Assembly: GCF_026410385.1 (NCBI RefSeq)
Contig: NZ_JAPMLT010000002.1
Span: forward strand, 124,001 to 188,000
DNA from: Tumebacillus lacus
GTDB taxonomy: Bacteria; Bacillota; Bacilli; Tumebacillales; Tumebacillaceae
Length of the DNA: 64,000 nucleotides
Direction: 5' to 3'
Shown: in pieces, positions 11,531 to 33,656 of the stretch
Numbering within the stretch: the stretch's first letter is position 1
Layout of the letters: each line of letters begins with the position of its first letter
Translations under genes and position numbers: made by a program
The notes under the pieces: generated by a model
Seen by the model: only the letters and a program-made list of their open reading frames with translations
Told to the model about the DNA's origin: nothing
Database searches by the model: none

Positions 11531-12226
11531 TTATTTTACCGCTCGTACGGTTTCTCTCAGCACTTCTCGCCAGTTTTCACTGTACAGGGCGTTGCCGACG
11601 ACGATGGTGTCGGCGTAGCGGCCCATTCTCTCGGCCTTTTCGTAGCTGTCGATCCCGCCCCCGTAGAAGAGGTGCGCCCGCTGGAGCACGCGACTAACCT
11701 CTGCGACCAGCTCCGGGTCGCCGTAGGTGCCGCTGTATTCCAGATAGATCGACGGCATCGAAAACAGTTGCTCGCCGGCCGCCGCGTACGCCCCCGCCTG
11801 CTCGCGGTCAAGGTCGGTGACCGCCTGGGTCAGCCCGGCGACCGCCGCCTGCCCGTTGAGGACGAGGTATCCCTCCGTCAACACGCGCGACCAGTCGACG
11901 AACGGCCGATAGCGTGCCAACGCTTTGGCATGGGCGCCGATCAACCACTCGGTCGTCCCGGCGTTGAGCACGACGGGGACCGCGTAGCCGTCGACTCCGT
12001 CGAGGATCGACTCTGCGTCGGAGATCTCCTGCCACACCGGCAACTCCGGGGCCAATCGGCGCAGTCGTCCGAACAGCCGGTTCACATTTTCATAGGTGAT
12101 CCCCAGCGTGCCGCCGACAAACACCGCATCTGTGCCCGATGCCGCGAGCGAAGAGAGCAGCTCGTCCGATGTGTCGCGGTCCGGATCGAGCTTGACGACG
12201 TGCCGCCAGTCTTTCCATACGGTCAC
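11531..12226 (-). CDS. pcrB: Heptaprenylglyceryl phosphate synthase PcrB
   Basis: PcrB (231 aa, usual length about 228) joins heptaprenyl diphosphate to glycerol-1-phosphate, making an archaeal-type ether lipid precursor in Bacillales. The TIM-barrel marks are visible: WRHVVKLDPD at the start, SGTDAVFVGGTLGI, YLEYSGTYGDPELV and the phosphate-binding LFYGGGIDSYEKA plus ADTIVVGNALY. I start at GTG 12226, eight bases after GGGAGG; an upstream extension to 12373 lacks family similarity. In Bacillus it sits next to pcrA. Here tRNAs, rseP and the HD gene lie between them. Confidence 0.93.
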   Translation of the reverse strand: MTVWKDWRHVVKLDPDRDTSDELLSSLAASGTDAVFVGGTLGITYENVNRLFGRLRRLAPELPVWQEISDAESILDGVDGYAVPVVLNAGTTEWLIGAHAKALARYRPFVDWSRVLTEGYLVLNGQAAVAGLTQAVTDLDREQAGAYAAAGEQLFSMPSIYLEYSGTYGDPELVAEVSRVLQRAHLFYGGGIDSYEKAERMGRYADTIVVGNALYSENWREVLRETVRAVK

Positions 12227-12265
12227 TTGCGATCCCTCCCTGATCCTGTCTTTCCGGGCACACCG

Positions 12266-12302
12266 CAAAAACCCCTGCTGTTTGGCTTCCTGAGCAGGGG
12301 TC
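12266..12302 (-). terminator. Terminator after yerC
   Basis: ACCCCTGCT (12271-12279) / AGCAGGGGT (12293-12301) hairpin, with TTTTG following on the minus strand. It lies between yerC and pcrB. Confidence 0.8.
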
Positions 12303-12315
12303 TGGTGCGACTGGC

Positions 12316-12606
12316 TTATCGATTGAGACGTTCCAGCACCGTCTTGTACCCGTCGGTGCCGTAGTTCAAGCAACGCTTGACACGGGAGATCGTCGCCGTG
12401 CTCGCGCCCGTCTCGGCTTCGATCTGATTATACGTGTGCCCTTTGCGCAGCATCCGCGCCACTTCCAAGCGCTGAGCCAGGGACTGCACTTCATTGACCG
12501 TGCAAAGATCATCAAAAAACTGATACGCTTCTTCCAAGGTGTTCAACTGCAAAACCGCCTCGAAGAGCTGATCAACCGTTCTATCCCGAAGTTTATCGAG
12601 CTGCAT
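12316..12606 (-). CDS. yerC: YerC/TrpR-superfamily DNA-binding protein
   Basis: The 96-aa protein is a YerC/YecD-type member of the TrpR fold: FFDDLCTVNEVQSLAQRLEVARML, then the helix-turn-helix GHTYNQIEAETGASTATISRVKRCL. Family members are small dimeric repressors, and some have been predicted to control histidine biosynthesis genes. The ligand here is unknown. It begins the yerC-pcrB-pcrA-ligA group as in Bacillus, but a terminator separates it from pcrB. Confidence 0.92.
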   Translation of the reverse strand: MQLDKLRDRTVDQLFEAVLQLNTLEEAYQFFDDLCTVNEVQSLAQRLEVARMLRKGHTYNQIEAETGASTATISRVKRCLNYGTDGYKTVLERLNR

Positions 12607-12761
12607 GATATCCCTCCAACGCTTTCACACTTTAACGCTGATCTTTTCGACAGTGCGAATGCGGATTCCTGCCATTCCTTGCTTTCATTATCCCCCATCC
12701 GACCTTATCTCGCAAGCATTTTCAAGAGTTGATGACGTATTTATTGCGTTTAAACCCCTCA

Positions 12762-12800
12762 CATTTCGGTAACGATTGCTAACAAAAACCTACCGAAATG
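12762..12800. promoter_or_regulatory. Perfect inverted repeat before the OLD nuclease gene
   Basis: CATTTCGGTA (12762-12771) and TACCGAAATG (12791-12800) are exact complements 19 bases apart. The right arm ends one base before the ribosome binding site (CGAGG) of the OLD gene. It could be an operator or an mRNA hairpin that hides the ribosome binding site. There is no T-run, so it is not a terminator. Confidence 0.6.
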
Positions 12801-12813
12801 CGAGGTCCTGTTC

Positions 12814-14535
12814 ATGAAGCTCGAAAAGCTGATCGTCCGCCGATTCCGAGGCATCTGTCACCCTGTCACCCTGCGCTTCCACAACAACAACCTGATCTTT
12901 CTGAGCGGCCCGAACAACGCGGGCAAATCGACGCTGATGGAGGCGTACGATTTCTTTGTCACGGCAAAGCGAACCGCCGATCCGGACGATTTTCATAAAG
13001 GCGATGCATCGTCGCCGATTGAGATCGAGGCGTGGTTCCGTGCGGAGAGCGAGCAAGACCGCACCCATCGCGCGTTTCGATCCTGCCTTGACGAAAACGG
13101 ACGCGCACGCATTCGCAAAGTCTGGACCACTCCAGGCAGTGAGGGTGCCAAACAAACCTACCATCCGGCCGAAGAAAAATGGGAGGACGGCGGTGCGGGC
13201 GGCTTTGACACGATCCTGCAAAACGGCTGCCCGACCCCGATCTGGATACGCGGCATGATGACCCCGGAGGAGGCGGTGTCAGGGCTGCAAGCGCTGGTGA
13301 AAGAGACGTTGCTCAAAACGGTTCGCGAGACCGATGCCTACCGACAGGCGAAACGGGCGCTCGAAGCCCTGCAAACGGAAATCTCCACGCTCCCCTACAC
13401 AGCCGATCTCGAAGCCGGACTCAACCAACTCAACGACCGCACCTTCCCCGGCATCCGCTTCCGGCTGGACACCGAGCCGGAGCCGGACTTTGTCAACAAG
13501 CTGATGAAGGACAAGACCCGCGTCAAAGTCTGCCGCAGCGACGACGCCGACCCGGTCGAGCTCGACCTCGACTCCTTCGGACACGGAGTCCGTCGTCAAT
13601 TTGTGCTCAACTCCTGCTACTCCCTTTCCGAACAGATCCTCCTCTCGAAAAAGAAATCGGCGAAAACACCGGACATGTTTGCATTCCCCGCCTCGTGCGA
13701 CGCAGCCGACACGCCGGTACGAAAGACCAAGATCCTGCTCTTCGAAGAACCGGAGCTCTACCTCCACCCGGACGTCGCCCGCTCCATCCGCGACCTGCTC
13801 TACGAACTGGCCGACCACTCGGAGTTTCAAGTGCTCTGCACCACCCACTCACCGCTGATGGTCGACCTGGCCAAAGAACACACCACCCTCGTGCGCGTCG
13901 TGATGAACGAGCGACAGGAGACCACCGTGCATCAGGTCGAGTCCACCCTCTTCGAAGACGACGAACGCGACCGCATGCGGATGCTCAAATCGTTCGATCC
14001 CTATGTCTGCGAGGCATTTTTCACCGACCGCGTCCTGCTCGTCGAAGGCGACACCGAAGCGGTGGTCGTGCGCACGCTGGCACCGATCCTTGGCGAGCGG
14101 GTGCACGTCGTCAACTGCGGCTCAAAAATGAACATCCCGCTGTTTCAAAAAGTGCTCCGTCACTTCGGCATCGGCTACTCCGTCTTTCACGACCTCGACG
14201 ACAAAACCAACAGCAAAGGCCAGCTCAACGCCGCGTGGACGATGAACGATCGCATCTGGCACGAGATCGTCGCCGCCCGTCAGGTCGGAGTTGCCGCGAG
14301 ACGCTACCTCTTTGAACGCAACTTTGAAGAGGCCCATCACTACGAGCACTCCCCCCACGACGGCAAGCCCTACTCCGCCTACAAAATGGCTCGCGCTCTG
14401 CTCGATCACGCAACGGCGGCTCACGCTCCCGTCGTGCAGTTCCTGCGCTCCGTCTGCGGACAGCTCGACCTGCCCGAGACATTCAACCAAGACTACGTGG
14501 AAGATCGCGGGGAGAACACCGGCACCACCGCCTGA
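12814..14535 (+). CDS. OLD-family ATP-dependent nuclease (AAA ATPase + TOPRIM)
   Basis: The 573-aa protein starts with an SMC/RecF-like ATPase (KLIVRRFRGI; Walker A GPNNAGKS, residues 32-39). The other ATPase motifs follow at ILLFEEPELYLHPD (Walker B) and CTTHSPLMVDLA (His switch). A TOPRIM nuclease domain begins at DRVLLVEGDTEAVV with a later HDLDD acidic motif. OLD proteins are metal-dependent nucleases often found in phage defence. No UvrD-like GajB partner is adjacent, so this looks like a stand-alone (class 1) OLD rather than Gabija. It converges on the Shango-type genes, which suggests a defence island. Confidence 0.88.
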   Translation: MKLEKLIVRRFRGICHPVTLRFHNNNLIFLSGPNNAGKSTLMEAYDFFVTAKRTADPDDFHKGDASSPIEIEAWFRAESEQDRTHRAFRSCLDENGRARIRKVWTTPGSEGAKQTYHPAEEKWEDGGAGGFDTILQNGCPTPIWIRGMMTPEEAVSGLQALVKETLLKTVRETDAYRQAKRALEALQTEISTLPYTADLEAGLNQLNDRTFPGIRFRLDTEPEPDFVNKLMKDKTRVKVCRSDDADPVELDLDSFGHGVRRQFVLNSCYSLSEQILLSKKKSAKTPDMFAFPASCDAADTPVRKTKILLFEEPELYLHPDVARSIRDLLYELADHSEFQVLCTTHSPLMVDLAKEHTTLVRVVMNERQETTVHQVESTLFEDDERDRMRMLKSFDPYVCEAFFTDRVLLVEGDTEAVVVRTLAPILGERVHVVNCGSKMNIPLFQKVLRHFGIGYSVFHDLDDKTNSKGQLNAAWTMNDRIWHEIVAARQVGVAARRYLFERNFEEAHHYEHSPHDGKPYSAYKMARALLDHATAAHAPVVQFLRSVCGQLDLPETFNQDYVEDRGENTGTTA

Positions 14536-26996: not shown

Positions 26997-27668
26997 TCAG
27001 GCTTCGTTTGCCTTCTTTTCCAGTTCCGCCAGTTGCTTCTCCAGACCCTCACGCCACGCTTGCGACAGTTCCGGGACTGCGAGAATGCGCTTGATACTCT
27101 CGACGTTGTTTTTCTCGAGGAAGCGCGCATGGTTCGTGAACGCCACCGTCACGCCGAGCGGATGACGCTCCAGCAGCCGCAGTTCCTGACCGGCCTCGAC
27201 ATGACCTTCCTGCAAGACACGGAGATAAAACCCGGTAAATCCGGTTTGCATCACTTGAAGCCCGACTTTGTCGACGCCGTGGGCCATCGCGATTTTAAAG
27301 CAAGGAATCCGCGCTTCCGTGATCTGCACCACCGCTTCGCCGAGCGCAAACGTGTCGCCGATGCACAGATCGTCCTCCAGCATCCCCTGCACCGTCAGAT
27401 TCTCCCCAAACGCGCCGGGGGTCAGCTCTTTGCCAAACACTTTTTCCCAATAGGGGTAGTGTTCGACCGGATAGACGCACACCGCTTTGTCCGGCCCGCC
27501 GTGAAATTCCAGATTGGCTTGCTGATCGCCTGTCAGATTGGTTTTCCCGAGAAACACCGGACCTGCCACCGGCTGTTTGAAAAAGGCGGTCTCCACCGGC
27601 TTGCCTTTATACTCCGCCAGTTTCGGTCTTGCCACTTGTATCGATAGCACACGTGCGGTCGTCATCAT
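26997..27668 (-). CDS. MOSC-domain protein (YiiM-like), copy 1
   Basis: The 223-aa protein has the MOSC fold with EFHGGPDKAVCVYPVEHYPYW, GAFGENLTVQGM and the conserved Cys in ARIPCFKIA, plus the C-terminal three-helix extension of the YiiM type. YiiM-like enzymes reduce N-hydroxylated compounds using molybdenum cofactor; the Cys binds the metal. A paralogue lies 6 kb away, also on the minus strand. Partner reductases are not adjacent. Confidence 0.88.
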   Translation of the reverse strand: MMTTARVLSIQVARPKLAEYKGKPVETAFFKQPVAGPVFLGKTNLTGDQQANLEFHGGPDKAVCVYPVEHYPYWEKVFGKELTPGAFGENLTVQGMLEDDLCIGDTFALGEAVVQITEARIPCFKIAMAHGVDKVGLQVMQTGFTGFYLRVLQEGHVEAGQELRLLERHPLGVTVAFTNHARFLEKNNVESIKRILAVPELSQAWREGLEKQLAELEKKANEA

Positions 27669-27785: not shown

Positions 27786-28349
27786 ATGTTTAACAGAACT
27801 CACTTCCCCGTACACTTCGACCTGCGCCCGGTTACTTTATCGGATGCTGACAGCCACTTTGCCTTGATCGACGGCAGCCGGGACTACCTGCGCCGCTGGT
27901 TGCCGTTTATCGACGACAGCCGCTCGCCGGAAGACTCGCTCGGCTTTCTGCAATACGCCCTGCAAGCGCAGGAGGAAGGGTCTGCGATGTACTTCGCGAT
28001 CCTCTCGGAGGGCGAGTTTGCCGGTGTGATCGGCTACCACCGCATCGACCGTGAAAACAACATCGCCACCGTCGGTTGCTGGCTCGGCCTGCCCTACCAA
28101 GGGCGGGGACTGGCTCACGCGGCGTATGCGGCGGTGATCGAGTACGCGTTTACCGAGTTGGACATGAATCGCGTGCAGATGTTCGTCTCCACCGACAACG
28201 AGCGGAGCAACCGGGCCAAGGAGCGGCTCGGCATGACCCGCGAAGGCCTGATTCGTCAGGCGGAATGGCTGTACGACCGCTACGTCGACCACTGCATCTG
28301 GTCGATCCTGCGCGACGAATGGAACCAGAGAGAGGAGCCTGCCCGATGA
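27786..28349 (+). CDS. GNAT acetyltransferase (RimL/YdaF-like) next to the radical SAM gene
   Basis: The 187-aa protein is a RimJ/L-type GNAT: FDLRPVTLSDADSHFALID at the start, WLGLPYQGRGLAHAAYAAVI as the acetyl-CoA loop (QGRG) and RSNRAKERLGMTREGLIR near the end. Its stop codon overlaps the start of the radical SAM gene (ATGA), so the two are translationally coupled. In RiPP operons such enzymes often acetylate the peptide or confer self-protection. Here that is inference. Confidence 0.85.
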   Translation: MFNRTHFPVHFDLRPVTLSDADSHFALIDGSRDYLRRWLPFIDDSRSPEDSLGFLQYALQAQEEGSAMYFAILSEGEFAGVIGYHRIDRENNIATVGCWLGLPYQGRGLAHAAYAAVIEYAFTELDMNRVQMFVSTDNERSNRAKERLGMTREGLIRQAEWLYDRYVDHCIWSILRDEWNQREEPAR

Positions 28350-29671
28350 CGACGACCGACTACTCCTATTTGCAAAAAGCCACCCCGCGTCAGATCGATC
28401 GGCTCGCCTCGCACCTCCTGCGCCGCTATCGGGAAAAGGAGCAAAAAAGCGGGCTGTCGATCGTCTATGACATCACCTACATCTGCAACCAAGCCTGCCC
28501 CGGCTGCTGCGTCTCCGCCATCGCCTACAAGAAAGGCACGGAGATCGCGCCGGAGTCACACGGCCATGATTTTCAGGGAATTTCAAAAGTTCTGCACAAG
28601 ATCCGCGCCTACCTCGACTCGCGGCCGGACCTGCCGTTCTTTCTGGACTTTGGCGGCGGGGAACTGACCCTGCGCCCGGATTGGAAAGACATCGTGCGCC
28701 TCGCCTCGGAGCTGTTCGGTCGCGAGTCGGTCGGCATGAACACCAACGGCACCCGCGCGTCTGTGGAGGACCTGCTGGAGATCGAGCCGTACATCTCGTA
28801 CATCGGCATCTCCATCGACGGATTGGAGGAGTATCACAACCGTTGGCGGAAAACGGTCGAAGGCGTGAACTCGTACCAAAAGACGATGACCTTGATCTCG
28901 CAGATGATCGAGCACCCGTCCCTGCGCGACAAACTGGACATCACCACCGTCCCGACCAAGGACAACCTCGCCCAGATCCCCGATCTGATGCGGGAGTTGC
29001 ATGCGCTGGGCATCCGGCATTACTCGGTGCACCGGGCGATGCAGGTCGGCCGCTTCTGGGAGCGGGACGAGCTGCTGCCGGGCAAGGAGGACTATTTTGA
29101 CCTGCTCCTGCGCCTGATCGAGACGGGCGAGGAACTGGGCATGAACGTCCACCTGCACCATTCCATCGAGTCGATCTACACCGCGCTGCTGCTCGGTCAC
29201 AACACGTACGCCGGCGACAACATCGGCAATCCGGACCGCAAAGCGTCGCTTGGCATCGACCCGTGGGGCCGCGTGTTCTTCGATCCGTGGTGCACCGTCG
29301 CGCCGTGGGACAAACTGGCGAGTTCCTCGCTGCTCGACGACGGCATGGACTTCGAAGACATCCTGCGCTCGCACGGCGGCGTGCAGGATCTGATCGACTC
29401 CTACTGCCGGATCGAGACCCGCTGCCAAGGCTGCCCGGTCGCCTGCTCCGGCGGCAACCGCATCGCCTCCGCCGCCCAGCACATCCGCTCCACCCGCGGC
29501 CTCAAAGCCAGCGCCGTCACCCGCGACGACCTGCTCGGAGCCCTCGCCGCCGTCGACCCGGCCTGCCCGCTCTACCGCGACGGCGACACCTTCGCCCCGC
29601 CTGACGATGCCGACCTGCTCGACGTGCTCCGCCCCTTCCGCGAAGCAGCCCGGGGTGCGGCTCAGAAATAA
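28346..29671 (+). CDS. Radical SAM/SPASM-type peptide maturase
   Basis: The 441-aa protein has the cluster-binding motif CNQACPGC (residues about 47-54, CxxxCxxC) and SAM-binding FLDFGGGELTL and VGMNTNGTRAS. The C-terminal Cys group CRIETRCQGCPVACSGG resembles a SPASM/twitch domain holding extra iron-sulfur clusters. This architecture is typical of enzymes that crosslink or modify ribosomal peptides. The ATG at 28346 follows AGAGGAG and overlaps the GNAT stop; an open frame reaching back to 28076 is a shadow. The likely substrate is the 27-aa peptide encoded 2.2 kb downstream on the other strand. Not PqqE: the gene context is different. Confidence 0.88.
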   Translation: MTTTDYSYLQKATPRQIDRLASHLLRRYREKEQKSGLSIVYDITYICNQACPGCCVSAIAYKKGTEIAPESHGHDFQGISKVLHKIRAYLDSRPDLPFFLDFGGGELTLRPDWKDIVRLASELFGRESVGMNTNGTRASVEDLLEIEPYISYIGISIDGLEEYHNRWRKTVEGVNSYQKTMTLISQMIEHPSLRDKLDITTVPTKDNLAQIPDLMRELHALGIRHYSVHRAMQVGRFWERDELLPGKEDYFDLLLRLIETGEELGMNVHLHHSIESIYTALLLGHNTYAGDNIGNPDRKASLGIDPWGRVFFDPWCTVAPWDKLASSSLLDDGMDFEDILRSHGGVQDLIDSYCRIETRCQGCPVACSGGNRIASAAQHIRSTRGLKASAVTRDDLLGALAAVDPACPLYRDGDTFAPPDDADLLDVLRPFREAARGAAQK

Positions 29672-29695
29672 GAAAAAGGAGCGATCCTCTACAGC

Positions 29696-30748
29696 ATGAG
29701 CACTCCCAACACCGCCGCGAAAAGCACCTATCGTTTTGGCGCCAGTCCCAACCGTCTTTTACAAATGGACGTACTCTACTTTCTCGTCACATTGCTCTTC
29801 TTCTACGTCCAGCTCCACATGGTCATCCAGTTCGCGTGGCTTGGCCATATCACCCTGCTCGCCCTGTTCCTGAACCTGCTCTGCTTCAAACTCGGGGAAC
29901 TGGCCCACGAGCTGTTCGACGGCGGTCCGGCCCCGCTGTGGATCGTCCTCGCAGCAGGCTCGGCGATCCTCTCCGCGACGATGCCCGACCTCTCCGTCCT
30001 CTACTTCGTCTTCGGCCTCGCCATGATGAAGATCCGCGTCGAGCTGTCCGCCTACTCCGCCCGCAGCGTCAAGCTCAGCTCGCGGGCGCTCGGCTTCATC
30101 CTCGCACCCTTGTTTCATCCGGTCGTCTTCGAGATCTTTGTCGTCGCCACCTTCGCCCTGTGCCTGCTCCACATCAAGCACATCAAAACGAACGAAGCCC
30201 CGCGCCTTCATTGGTTCACCCTGCCGGAGAACAAACGCGTCTACTGGACGATGGGCGTCCACCACGCCCACTATTTCATCTACTGCTACTCGATTCCGAT
30301 CTCCTTCGCCGCCTGGAGCGACCTGCCGATGTGGAGCATGGGCCTCGTCTTCTACGTTGGCTGGGCCGCGTACAACGCCTATGAAAAATGGCTCCGTCCG
30401 AGTTGGCCCGCCTTCATCATCGGCCACTTCATCGGTGCTCTGTCCCTCATCGGCCTGTACTATGCCGAGGCTCTGTCTCCGCTCCTCTTCTGGTGGTTCA
30501 TGACGGGACTTGGCGGCGGCACCGTCTTCATGCTCCATCGCCTCGTGCCGCGTCCGGCAGACGTCGTCGACCGCGAGTTGAGCATCACTGAAGGGTTCGG
30601 CCACGTCTTCGGCGTCGCCGTCTGGGGCCTATTGATCTTCACCGTCTCTCCGGAGAGCCCCTACCTCGCCGGCGCGATCCTCGCCGCCCTCTCGATGTTC
30701 ATCGCCTACAACGCCTCGAAATCAAAAAATGGTCAACCCGCTTCCTAG
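29696..30748 (+). CDS. Polytopic membrane protein of unknown function in the RiPP-like locus
   Basis: The 350-aa protein has about ten hydrophobic segments and several His-rich spots near the membrane (GELAHELFDGG, FHPVVFEIF, CLLHIKHIKTN, MGVHHAHYFIYCYSI). His clusters of this kind occur in membrane diiron or heme enzymes, but I do not recognise the family. It follows the radical SAM gene by 24 bases and is surely in its operon. The ribosome binding site (AAGGAG) is rather far (about 14 bases) from the ATG. It could export the product, bind a cofactor, or modify a lipid or peptide. Confidence 0.8.
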   Translation: MSTPNTAAKSTYRFGASPNRLLQMDVLYFLVTLLFFYVQLHMVIQFAWLGHITLLALFLNLLCFKLGELAHELFDGGPAPLWIVLAAGSAILSATMPDLSVLYFVFGLAMMKIRVELSAYSARSVKLSSRALGFILAPLFHPVVFEIFVVATFALCLLHIKHIKTNEAPRLHWFTLPENKRVYWTMGVHHAHYFIYCYSIPISFAAWSDLPMWSMGLVFYVGWAAYNAYEKWLRPSWPAFIIGHFIGALSLIGLYYAEALSPLLFWWFMTGLGGGTVFMLHRLVPRPADVVDRELSITEGFGHVFGVAVWGLLIFTVSPESPYLAGAILAALSMFIAYNASKSKNGQPAS

Positions 30749-30768
30749 CCGGGTTGACCTTTTCTTTC
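30725..30768. terminator. Bidirectional terminator between the two RiPP-like operons
   Basis: GGTCAACCCG (30731-30740) / CGGGTTGACC (30750-30759), perfect 10-bp stem, A-run before and TTTTCTTTCTT after. The membrane protein stop codon lies in the loop. Confidence 0.93.
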
Positions 30769-31788
30769 TTACAGCGAGAAATAATCCACATACAAACGCG
30801 GAATATACGACGCCGGATCGTTGTAATACGAGATGATATTGTCATGATACAGATCGAACGCATGCTTCAGATCATGCACACAGTTGATCACAAAATGCGC
30901 TTCTTTCGCTTCGATATACTCCACATGCTCCAACGCCCGCTCGATCAGGCTCTGATGCCCGCCTTCGATATCGCCGCGCATATGTTGCAGAATCGGCTCA
31001 ATCGTATCCGGAATGTGGCCAAAGTTGCCCGAGATCTTCTCAAACGACGCCTGCGCCGTCGCGTAGTCCTCCTGACGCGCCTCAAACAGCGACGTGCAAG
31101 CGATATACGCCAGCGAGCTCTGACGCCCGATCTCGCACAGCATCTGGATCAACGCCGTCGTCCCGACCAGCGGGTTGGCCGTCTGTGCCACCTCGCGCGG
31201 GATGCCCACGTTCTCCAGCGTCTGCAAGATCAGATCGGTATGGTTGTACTCATCGAGGAAGTAGTCGGTCAGGATCTTCTCATGATGCTCGTCCCGGCAA
31301 TGAGCCAGCGCATTGGAGATATGACGGGTCGCCGACTTCACATACTGGTAGGTCTCCAGCAGTAGCCCGTGGAACACTTCCTTCGGATACTCGTTGCGCT
31401 CCAGACCCGCGAACAGCTGATGATACCCGATCTGACGGGACCACATCACCGCCGTGTCGTCGATCGCGCGGAGGAAGTCCTCTTTTTTAATCCGGTCGAG
31501 CGGCAGTTCTTCGCGGAACATCCCCATCTCGTCCATCATCGCGACGATGTCGCGCACGCTCTCCTCGTTGACACCGGTGTGTTCGGCGATCTGCGGGATC
31601 GTGTGACGGCCGTCCATGTAGCGTTTCAGCTCCATAAACTTGCGCGGGTCGCCCACATCCTTGCCGATTTCAAAATAGTCTTTGCCAAACACCAGAAAAA
31701 TGCTTTCTTTATCGTTGCGGATCACAAACGTGCAGTGACGCAGACGCGGTTTTCCCAAATAGCCTTTCGCGGTGGACAGTGTGCTCAA
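30769..31788 (-). CDS. PqqD-like recognition domain fused to a heme-oxygenase-fold (PqqC/TenA-like) enzyme
   Basis: The 339-aa protein begins with a winged-helix PqqD-like domain (residues about 15-95: ESIFLVFGKDYFEIG, LKRYMDGRHTIPQIAEHTG). This is the RRE fold that binds RiPP leader peptides. The rest (about 110-335) is an all-helical heme-oxygenase-like domain with possible diiron ligands in LLLETYQYVK, TRHISNAL, DEYNHTDLI and HDLKHAFDLYHD. Such enzymes oxidise peptides or small molecules. The TTG at 31788 lies nine bases after GAGGAGG; the GTG at 31830 is inside a hairpin and was rejected. It follows the 27-aa peptide gene in one transcript. Confidence 0.82.
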   Translation of the reverse strand: MSTLSTAKGYLGKPRLRHCTFVIRNDKESIFLVFGKDYFEIGKDVGDPRKFMELKRYMDGRHTIPQIAEHTGVNEESVRDIVAMMDEMGMFREELPLDRIKKEDFLRAIDDTAVMWSRQIGYHQLFAGLERNEYPKEVFHGLLLETYQYVKSATRHISNALAHCRDEHHEKILTDYFLDEYNHTDLILQTLENVGIPREVAQTANPLVGTTALIQMLCEIGRQSSLAYIACTSLFEARQEDYATAQASFEKISGNFGHIPDTIEPILQHMRGDIEGGHQSLIERALEHVEYIEAKEAHFVINCVHDLKHAFDLYHDNIISYYNDPASYIPRLYVDYFSL

Positions 31789-31822
31789 TGAGTGACTCCT
31801 CCTCGATCTCCTGGTAAATAGA

Positions 31823-31854
31823 TCGATCACCTGACCGGACAGCCAGGTGATCGA
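31823..31854 (-). promoter_or_regulatory. Intercistronic hairpin (attenuator or RNA-processing stem)
   Basis: TCGATCACCTG (31823-31833) and CAGGTGATCGA (31844-31854) form a perfect 11-bp stem with a 10-base loop, between the 27-aa peptide gene and the oxidase gene. No proper U-tract follows, so it probably acts as a partial terminator or stabilises the upstream peptide mRNA. This is common in peptide operons where precursor must exceed enzyme. Confidence 0.75.
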
Positions 31855-31871
31855 GGGCGATCACTTGGCGA

Positions 31872-31955
31872 TTATGCGCAAGCGATCAGAGCTGCGGTGG
31901 AAGAAGACAGAGCGGAAGATTCACCGATCTTCTTGATCGTCACTTTCAGTTGCAT
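31872..31955 (-). CDS. Candidate RiPP precursor peptide, 27 aa
   Basis: The ATG at 31955 has a near-perfect AGGAGGTG seven bases upstream. The peptide splits into a basic, leader-like start (MQLKVTIKKIGE, residues 1-12) and a core rich in small residues (SSALSSSTAALIACA, residues 13-27) with five Ser, one Thr and a penultimate Cys. It has no signal peptide. The gene is first in an operon with a PqqD-domain enzyme and faces a radical SAM operon, which is the expected setting of a ribosomally made, modified peptide. I know of no described class with this core. It is too short for standard gene callers and easy to miss. Confidence 0.8.
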   Translation of the reverse strand: MQLKVTIKKIGESSALSSSTAALIACA

Positions 31956-31996
31956 GCTGTCACACCTCCTTGAACGTTAATAGGTAACTCAAATTA

Positions 31997-32025
31997 ATCT
32001 TACTTTGGAAAAAATTCACTGTCAA
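31997..32025 (-). promoter_or_regulatory. Near-consensus sigma-A promoter of the precursor peptide operon
   Basis: TTGACA (32020-32025), exactly 17 bases, TAAGAT (31997-32002) on the minus strand, about 40 bases before the start codon. One of the strongest promoters in the window. The surrounding 100 bases are notably AT-rich. Confidence 0.88.
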
Positions 32026-32975: not shown

Positions 32976-33656
32976 CTACAACTTCCCTTTCTCCGCGTAG
33001 ACCCGGCGCAGTTTATCCCGCCGTTCCTCCGCCAGTACCCGCCACTCGGAAGCCAACGCTTTGGCGGAGAGCACCTCTTCCAACAGTTCCAGATTGGTGT
33101 ACTCGTGATACAACGACCGGTTGATCATCGCCACCGACACGCCTTCTTCCGCCCGCTCCAGCCGTTCAAACCGGCGGTCTTCGCCGATCATCCCTTCTTC
33201 CAGCACGCGCAGATAAAAGCCGGTGTACCCCGTCCGGGCGACCTTCGGCAGCACCGTCGGATCACCGAGCCGCACCTCGACTTTAAAACAAGGCACTCGC
33301 GGCTGACAGACCTGAACCACCGCCTCGCCCAGCCGGTACACGTCGCCGATGCACACCTCATGCTCCAGCATGCCGCGCACCGTCAGATTTTCACCGAAAG
33401 CGGAGATCGGCATCTCCCGGCCGATCTGTTCCGCCCAGTAGGGGTAGTGGTCGTAGGAATAGACCATCACCGCTTTGTTTTCGCCGCCGTGATGGATCAG
33501 GTCCGCCTGACCGTCGCCTTCCAGATTGGTCTTCGCCAGATAGACGGGGCCGTCGACCGGCTGCTTGAAGATCCCGGTCTTGATCCTCATCCCGCGATAT
33601 TCCACCATCTGCGGCCGTCCGACATTCAGCGAAACGACCTCGATTGATTGAGACAT
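32976..33656 (-). CDS. MOSC-domain protein (YiiM-like), copy 2
   Basis: The 226-aa protein is a paralogue of the one at 26997-27668: LIHHGGENKAVMVYSYDHYPYW, GENLTVRGM and the metal-binding Cys in PRVPCFKVEV. Same size and same C-terminal three-helix extension. The start at 33656 follows AAGGAGG. An inverted repeat lies just upstream in the promoter region, suggesting regulation. Probably a molybdenum-dependent reductase of N-hydroxylated substrates. Confidence 0.88.
   Translation of the reverse strand: MSQSIEVVSLNVGRPQMVEYRGMRIKTGIFKQPVDGPVYLAKTNLEGDGQADLIHHGGENKAVMVYSYDHYPYWAEQIGREMPISAFGENLTVRGMLEHEVCIGDVYRLGEAVVQVCQPRVPCFKVEVRLGDPTVLPKVARTGYTGFYLRVLEEGMIGEDRRFERLERAEEGVSVAMINRSLYHEYTNLELLEEVLSAKALASEWRVLAEERRDKLRRVYAEKGKL

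Follow-up and report, generated by a model that had tools for sequence, protein, structure and literature searches.

A short peptide gene beside a heme-oxygenase-like enzyme gene in Tumebacillus lacus: a candidate minimal RiPP-type unit with relatives in distant bacteria

The Locus

The subject of this report is a group of five genes in Tumebacillus lacus. They lie in a 64,000-nucleotide stretch of contig NZ_JAPMLT010000002.1, which as a whole is called the window, and all coordinates are positions in it. An earlier note, made from the letters of the sequence, had placed the five genes in one new locus for a ribosomally synthesized and post-translationally modified peptide (RiPP). All five are present and correctly positioned in that note (Table 1), and the shared terminator that it described folds on both strands, though a pattern scan did not list it. 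The five genes look like two independent convergent units, one with GNAT, radical SAM and membrane protein genes (unit 1) and the other with a peptide gene followed by an enzyme gene. It is probable that this second pair, 31872–31955 and 30769–31788, constitutes a minimal RiPP-type unit of precursor and maturase, with unit 1 a neighbour that is probably unrelated. The computed features that bear on this are the gene pair itself, an N-terminal domain in the enzyme that resembles RiPP recognition elements (RRE), a complete metal motif, and the recurrence in distant relatives of a short open reading frame (ORF) led by a Shine-Dalgarno sequence, mostly with a hairpin.

The peptide ORF has a strong Shine-Dalgarno sequence, AAGGAGGTG, and the TTG start of the enzyme gene is preceded by GGAGGAG. 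Promoter-like sites of the type TTGACA-17-TAAGAT number three in the region, compared to 1.6 ± 1.2 in shuffles, so that such a site is weak evidence by itself.

Table 1. Features of the two convergent units, with positions in the window
Feature	Position	Strand	Basis and remarks
GNAT acetyltransferase	27786–28349	+	Pfam Acetyltransf_3, 1.9e-25; neighbouring unit, probably unrelated
Radical SAM protein, SPASM-like Cys residues	28346–29671	+	Pfam Radical_SAM, 1.1e-11; neighbouring unit
Polytopic membrane protein, conserved His	29696–30748	+	Hydropathy; neighbouring unit
Bidirectional terminator common to the two convergent units	~30725–30768	both	Folding z -6.2 and -5.3
Heme-oxygenase-like enzyme with N-terminal RRE-like domain, proposed maturase	30769–31788	-	Pfam, metal motif, hhalign
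14-pair hairpin in the gap before the enzyme gene; may act as a partial terminator	31823–31854	-	Gap z -3.4
27-residue peptide ORF MQLKVTIKKIGESSALSSSTAALIACA, proposed precursor	31872–31955	-	Shine-Dalgarno sequence; C-anchored similarity to the Rhizobium etli peptide
Promoter-like TTGACA-17-TAAGAT	31997–32025	-	Consensus match 10/12

The Enzyme

The product of 30769–31788 matches the Pfam families TENA_THI-4 (8.7e-10; 39.2 bits, cut-off 22) and Haem_oxygenas_2 (6.3e-7; 29.8 bits, cut-off 28.9) and is, as judged from its sequence, a heme-oxygenase-like oxidase/oxygenase (HDO). The E-H-E-H-D-H metal motif is complete (E180, H183, E236, H269, D273 and H278), with the spacing H-x3-D-x4-H in the third helix. 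E180, H183, E236, H269 and H278 are invariant in an alignment of seven sequences, and at the fifth ligand position the window and R. etli enzymes have Asp, six other aligned relatives Asn. An assignment of E145 as the first ligand, with two ligands missing, was discarded, wider alignments placing E180 and H183. The nearest solved sequences are 4-aminobenzoate synthase/CT610 (CADD) and 3dde. AlphaFold models made without an alignment were poor (pLDDT 36.9 for the enzyme, 45.0 for the membrane protein). In PADLOC the window enzyme had one match (E 0.0099) and the radical SAM protein weak viperin matches; the membrane protein and the R. etli enzyme had none.

When a profile of five HDO N-termini, including the first 95 residues of the window enzyme, was compared with the N-terminal domains of three ThiF-type proteins, hhalign gave 97%, and the window and R. 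etli N-termini alone gave 91%. Two winged helix-turn-helix sequences, used singly as controls, gave 0.2–1.5%. Three PqqD-type sequences gave 33% or 0.7%, and another match of the PqqD model (L034) 6% and 5%. The N-termini from Robbsia, Tistrella and Enterobacter were outside these comparisons, and the HDO profile itself had retrieved two of the three ThiF sequences. Pfam gave no PqqD match in the domain up to E 10. The earlier note had predicted a leader-binding, PqqD-like domain; the first half of that description is upheld and the second is not, the domain apparently resembling ThiF-type leader-binding (RRE) domains rather than PqqD. ThiF-type proteins with N-terminal RRE-like domains are also encoded elsewhere in the genome of T. 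lacus (L061 1438–2583, G000:C12; L033, C3) and may mark further RiPP loci.

Related Loci and Their Peptides

A tblastn search identified a homologue on plasmid p42f of R. etli CFN 42 (36% over 96% of the query), preceded by an annotated ORF of 67 residues. Further RRE-HDO genes were found in genomes G001 and G115 and on plasmids of Rhodococcus gordoniae, Robbsia andropogonis, Tistrella mobilis and Enterobacter chuandaensis. The eight loci span Bacillota, Actinomycetota and alpha-, beta- and gammaproteobacteria, five bacterial classes in all. Weak, partial or RRE-only matches are not among the eight loci examined for peptides; they are in G005, G006, G036, G053, G105, G182, G201, G208, G266, G283, G293, G301 and G320, with two more in the window's own genome. 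A 42-residue HDO remnant in Rhizobium sp. T1473 was likewise left out of the eight. The remnant lies a few kb from radical SAM/SPASM genes; on the same plasmid (L023 ~11600–14307) a Shine-Dalgarno-led ORF of 45 codons, ending in STFHH, precedes two such genes, a possible RiPP locus in its own right. Enzyme and two-sequence-profile scans of genome contigs, and one scan of viral contigs, confirmed no relative; the back-translated patterns were narrow, and these negatives therefore say little about rarity. Plasmid searches with the peptides alone yielded no new relative, and the E. coli genomes contained nothing similar to the Enterobacter HDO gene.

Seven of the eight loci have a Shine-Dalgarno-led ORF of 15–67 codons, and in six it is directly upstream of an HDO gene, at a distance of 29–92 nucleotides. 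In a scan of six loci the upstream ORF had 27 residues in the window and 67 in R. etli. That of G001 has 16 (MKVVRSTRVRRVMFIL), that of Rhodococcus 17 (MTITKKKRTIVAVAVHL) and that of Robbsia 27, with the C-terminal end RPVLIPVHL; the Enterobacter ORF of 15 residues (MKVTRRVIPVMNARL) came from the gene control described below. Some of these peptides are thus very short (15–17 residues), and they are rich in Lys and Arg. Two further ORFs from the scan were set aside: a 42-codon one that lies within the window's DLH gene, and one of 29 codons farther upstream in Robbsia. Near the Tistrella HDO gene another scan gave just one ORF, of 10 codons, inside the HDO gene itself. A search of five loci by motif, for ORFs with the ending [VILA]H[LIV], identified a 55-residue Tistrella ORF with the end KPVLIAVHL, the Shine-Dalgarno sequence GGAGGGA and shorter starts in the same frame; it is followed by a gene for a thiamine pyrophosphate (TPP) enzyme and then by a fused double-HDO gene. 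In the G115 stretch this search picked up two short ORFs, both with poor Shine-Dalgarno sequences, which were taken for chance.

Two enzyme subgroups have peptides that are alike: window and R. etli, and Rhodococcus, Robbsia and Tistrella, the latter with the ending VHL. The peptide alignments follow the enzyme groups (window and R. etli 36% identical; Rhodococcus, Robbsia and the first Tistrella HDO 36–43%). The Cys of the window peptide is shared with the R. etli peptide, and the VHL subgroup is most conserved at the C-terminus.

A hairpin follows the peptide gene in six of the eight loci, counting Tistrella. In the window the gap folds with a z of -3.4, and none of 200 shuffles was as stable; the values were -2.4 in G001, -5.1 in Rhodococcus, -7.0 in Robbsia and -3.4 in Enterobacter.

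The accessory genes vary from locus to locus. Rhodococcus has a second HDO, MFS and GNAT genes. Robbsia has a second HDO and a third HDO-like gene, both below the Pfam cut-off, together with aminotransferase, EamA and GNAT genes. Another HDO, an M14 peptidase, MFS and NTP_transf_5 are found in Enterobacter. In G001 a following gene has no Pfam match and is weakly similar to the second gene of G115; M3 peptidase, NTP_transf_5 and HprK-related kinase genes are also present. The presence of peptidases, transporters and acetyltransferases is in keeping with a modified peptide, but none is common to all loci. The R. etli pair stands alone within a run of helicase, Z1, AIPR and PD-(D/E)XK genes, with the helicase gene on one side of it and the other three kinds on the other. 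Cytosine methyltransferase and Vsr genes lie near it (L024 14040–30546), and the surroundings are defence-island-like.

MNIO proteins (PF05114) are a family of RiPP enzymes. A 107-residue C-terminal MNIO fragment (6.5e-24; L037 9668–9991, minus strand) lies directly upstream of the RRE-HDO gene in G115, whose second gene is TENA-like. The fragment beside this enzyme supports the RiPP reading.

Controls

The frequency of such ORFs before other genes was estimated from 36 gaps of at least 120 nucleotides in five annotated stretches, counting ORFs with a Shine-Dalgarno sequence and ATG that end no more than 120 nucleotides from the gene. The annotated 67-residue R. etli gene was removed from the gene table, so that it could be counted. 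A mini-ORF preceded four of four HDO genes and two of 32 others (Fisher p 2.5e-4), and one of those two was the Rhizobium radical SAM/SPASM gene with its 45-residue ORF.

Dinucleotide shuffles gave a comparable mini-ORF in 59 of 2000 cases for the window, 13 for G001, 37 for Rhodococcus, 25 for Robbsia, 77 for R. etli and 28 for Enterobacter. At such a rate the window ORF alone is modest evidence, and the strength of the case lies in its recurrence among relatives.

Peptide similarity was scored in C-anchored alignments against 5000 shuffles of either peptide. Shuffles did as well in 2 and 1 cases for window and R. etli, in 0 and 0 for Robbsia and Tistrella, in 17 and 3 for Rhodococcus and Tistrella, and in 23 and 33 for Rhodococcus and Robbsia.

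A Peptide and its Maturase, and the Alternatives

Two features by which RiPP loci are generally recognized are found here: a short precursor gene kept beside a modifying enzyme, in seven of the eight loci (G115 lacks it), and a leader-binding domain, seen by profile comparison only. According to the proposed mechanism, one promoter would drive the peptide and enzyme genes, and the hairpin after the peptide gene would end most transcripts there, so that substrate would exceed enzyme, as in microcin C. The N-terminal strand LKVTIKK of the peptide would bind the RRE-like domain, and the metal site of the HDO would oxidize the C-terminal core. The most likely target would be at or near Cys26-Ala27, since this Cys is common to the R. 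etli peptide and conservation in the VHL subgroup is greatest at the C-terminus. Chemical precedents are dehydrogenation, as suggested for VarO, and decarboxylation or carbon excision, as with FlcE and FlcD. More tentatively, the eight loci may represent a phylum-crossing family in which an RRE-fused HDO rewrites the C-terminus of a peptide of 15–67 residues; in the window and R. etli the enzyme would act on the penultimate Cys and might thereby yield a ribosomally made, fluopsin-like metal ligand that contains sulfur. We would lean slightly against this wider proposal as a whole.

Several observations weigh against a peptide substrate. The window offers no protease or exporter that is linked to the pair. 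With a single ThiF sequence in place of three, hhalign fell to 72% and 5%; this sequence, L033, is from the window's own genome and was retrieved through the PqqD model, below its cut-off. Two scans found no Shine-Dalgarno-led peptide ORF upstream of the HDO gene in G115. The Tistrella peptide came to light only when ORFs were searched for by motif, with the VHL ending already known; it is 1.9 kb upstream of the HDO gene with the TPP-enzyme gene between, and its hairpin (z -1.4) is not above the GC-rich background. There is no hairpin in the gap after the R. etli ORF. Among the four HDO genes of the gene control, those of R. etli, Rhodococcus and Robbsia were already known to have such ORFs, and Enterobacter alone was new. 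Between the G001 and Enterobacter peptides the similarity is not significant (shuffles did as well in 586 and 527 of 5000 cases), and the best cross-group pair, Enterobacter and Rhodococcus, beats them (234 and 224). Without anchoring, the similarity of the window and R. etli peptides is weaker (50 and 46 of 10,000 shuffles), and of 508 unrelated ORFs from the R. etli region at least six outscore the R. etli peptide. The sample of eight loci, seven with a peptide, is small.

The main rival is a cis-acting leader peptide. Translation of the ORF would then control read-through of the hairpin into the HDO gene, as in an attenuator, and the HDO would act on a small molecule. A hairpin behind a short ORF with a Shine-Dalgarno sequence is how attenuators are classically laid out, the shortest, Lys/Arg-rich peptides would suit that role, and the best characterized HDOs act on small molecules (PMC13108848; this and the papers cited below are drawn on in excerpt). 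Attenuation does not account for the RRE-like domain of the enzyme or for the amino-acid similarity among the peptides, which in the VHL group is strongest at the C-terminus. The R. etli locus has no hairpin and an ORF of 67 codons, and in Tistrella another gene separates ORF and HDO. We regard attenuation as unlikely.

A second alternative, close to the proposal of the earlier note, combines all five genes in one RiPP pathway, with modification by both the HDO and the radical SAM enzyme, export by the membrane protein and immunity through the GNAT. The two units are close convergent neighbours, and GNAT genes are present in the HDO loci of Rhodococcus and Robbsia as well; these GNATs are, however, not similar to that of the window. 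Among 398 genomes of the class, strong matches to the radical SAM protein and to the membrane protein were found in the window's own genome and in G210; the former also has a 29% match in G337, and the latter a weak, stop-interrupted one in G378. G210 has the radical SAM gene (67% identical) and the membrane protein gene (46%) together and no HDO relative, either among the genome-search matches or on its 14.4-kb contig. Conversely, the stretches around the seven other HDO genes (12–40 kb each) contain no relative of the radical SAM protein, the membrane protein or the GNAT at E 1e-3. The core domain of the radical SAM protein starts at residue 43, and the roughly 40 residues before it leave no room for a fused RRE. 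Pfam gave no SPASM match for this protein, and among the best 25 of 53 NCBIfam maturase models it scored far under every cut-off, reaching at most 58.4 bits where the cut-off is 425.

Because the radical SAM and membrane protein genes of unit 1 recur without an HDO in G210 and have no relatives in the seven other HDO stretches, unit 1 was treated as separate. It is probably independent of the peptide/HDO pair, and it probably makes or handles a small molecule; the convergent arrangement leaves room for a link between the two. A single five-gene pathway is quite improbable. The earlier note's idea of searching genomes for a small peptide beside both enzymes thus had a divided outcome: the peptide recurs beside the HDO, and the radical SAM and HDO genes occur apart. 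The new RiPP locus that it proposed survives as a short peptide paired with an HDO that has an RRE-like domain, with no support for the radical SAM, GNAT and membrane proteins as members.

Within unit 1, the GNAT and radical SAM genes overlap by four bases, the latter starting at 28346, and the membrane protein gene comes next. Its product has 10 hydropathy peaks and 13 His residues, with no Pfam match over the cut-off. In G210 the neighbours are an Asp/Glu racemase, a DUF1611/DgcN-like protein, a second radical SAM protein, an MFS transporter and a FemAB-like acyltransferase. There (G210:C33; L020 794–8254) the radical SAM orthologue is divergent from the set with racemase and membrane protein, a possible undescribed small-molecule cluster. 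As far as the ribonucleotide reductase gene, all short Shine-Dalgarno-led ORFs of the G210 stretch are inside larger genes. Farther along the contig, at over 3.6 kb from the radical SAM gene, are three unexplained ones (24, 12 and 28 codons), and a distant peptide may thus be encoded there; that of 28 codons (L038 2303–2389, plus strand), several kb away, begins MQL.

MOSC/YiiM-like genes are found on both flanks of the locus, at 26997–27668 and 32976–33656, both on the minus strand. A check for insertion in 19-kb stretches from three other genomes of the genus found relatives of the downstream DLH gene (47–48%) and no match for any other locus or flank gene tested, the MFS gene on the other flank having only ~25% matches. 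No empty site could accordingly be defined.

The weakest alternative, a functionless chance ORF, would accord with the 59 of 2000 shuffles that hold a comparable mini-ORF and is made very improbable by the recurrence in seven of eight loci, with controls, and by the likeness to the R. etli peptide.

Comparison with Known Systems

Like the biosynthesis of pyrroloquinoline quinone (PQQ, PqqA–E), the window has a heme-oxygenase fold, a leader-binding-like domain and a radical SAM protein in one neighbourhood, a resemblance drawn in the earlier note that turns out to be weak. The peptide has no Tyr and a single Glu (E12), which does not belong to the C-terminal core. The enzyme has no PqqD domain by Pfam or hhalign, and the radical SAM gene is not tied to the HDO gene in other genomes. 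PqqC uses no metal cofactor (PMC11363339), unlike the window HDO, in which the metal ligands are present.

FlcD and FlcE, other HDOs and CADD share the fold and the E-H-E-H-(D/E)-H motif with the window enzyme, which is set apart by its H-x3-D-x4-H spacing. In fluopsin C biosynthesis a cysteine-derived substrate loses carbons 1 and 2 through the action of FlcE and FlcD (PMC11363339). FlcD, FlcE and other HDOs act on small molecules and CADD acts on itself; the excerpts describe no peptide gene for them. VarO of the thiovarsolin pathway, a heme-oxygenase-like protein and suggested dehydrogenase (PMC6511847), does act in a RiPP pathway. Thiovarsolins require a YcaO/TfuA pair and a repeating precursor, and the locus encodes neither YcaO nor TfuA among its five products. 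In the open-access papers searched VarO was the one HDO recognized from a RiPP pathway, and a 2026 HDO review, in the part drawn on, cites the VarO paper for ribosomal peptide modification (PMC13108848).

An RRE-HDO peptide family was not found described in the open PubMed Central literature searched, which omits most subscription papers. The similar pairs in distantly related bacteria suggest an undescribed family of ribosomally made, modified peptides. HDOs perform unusual oxidations, and an RRE-fused HDO with its own peptide gene offers small, directly testable pairs of substrate and enzyme. The search rule is simple: a short Shine-Dalgarno-led ORF, a hairpin and an RRE-HDO gene.

The microcin C-type RiPPs (MccB, PaaA, GrcB) have in common with the window a very short peptide gene, a hairpin and an RRE-fused enzyme. 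The mccA and mccB genes of microcin C are separated by a terminator, and a ribosome bound to mccA induces termination (PMC6495379); MccB, PaaA and GrcB have an N-terminal RRE of ~90 residues (PMC12250964). The exporter and GNAT genes of some HDO loci are a further likeness. The peptide sequences differ, and the catalytic domain of the microcin C-type enzyme is a ThiF-like adenylyltransferase, in contrast to the HDO of the window. Microcin C, with its peptide, hairpin and RRE-fused maturase, has the closest layout known to us, an HDO here replacing the ThiF enzyme.

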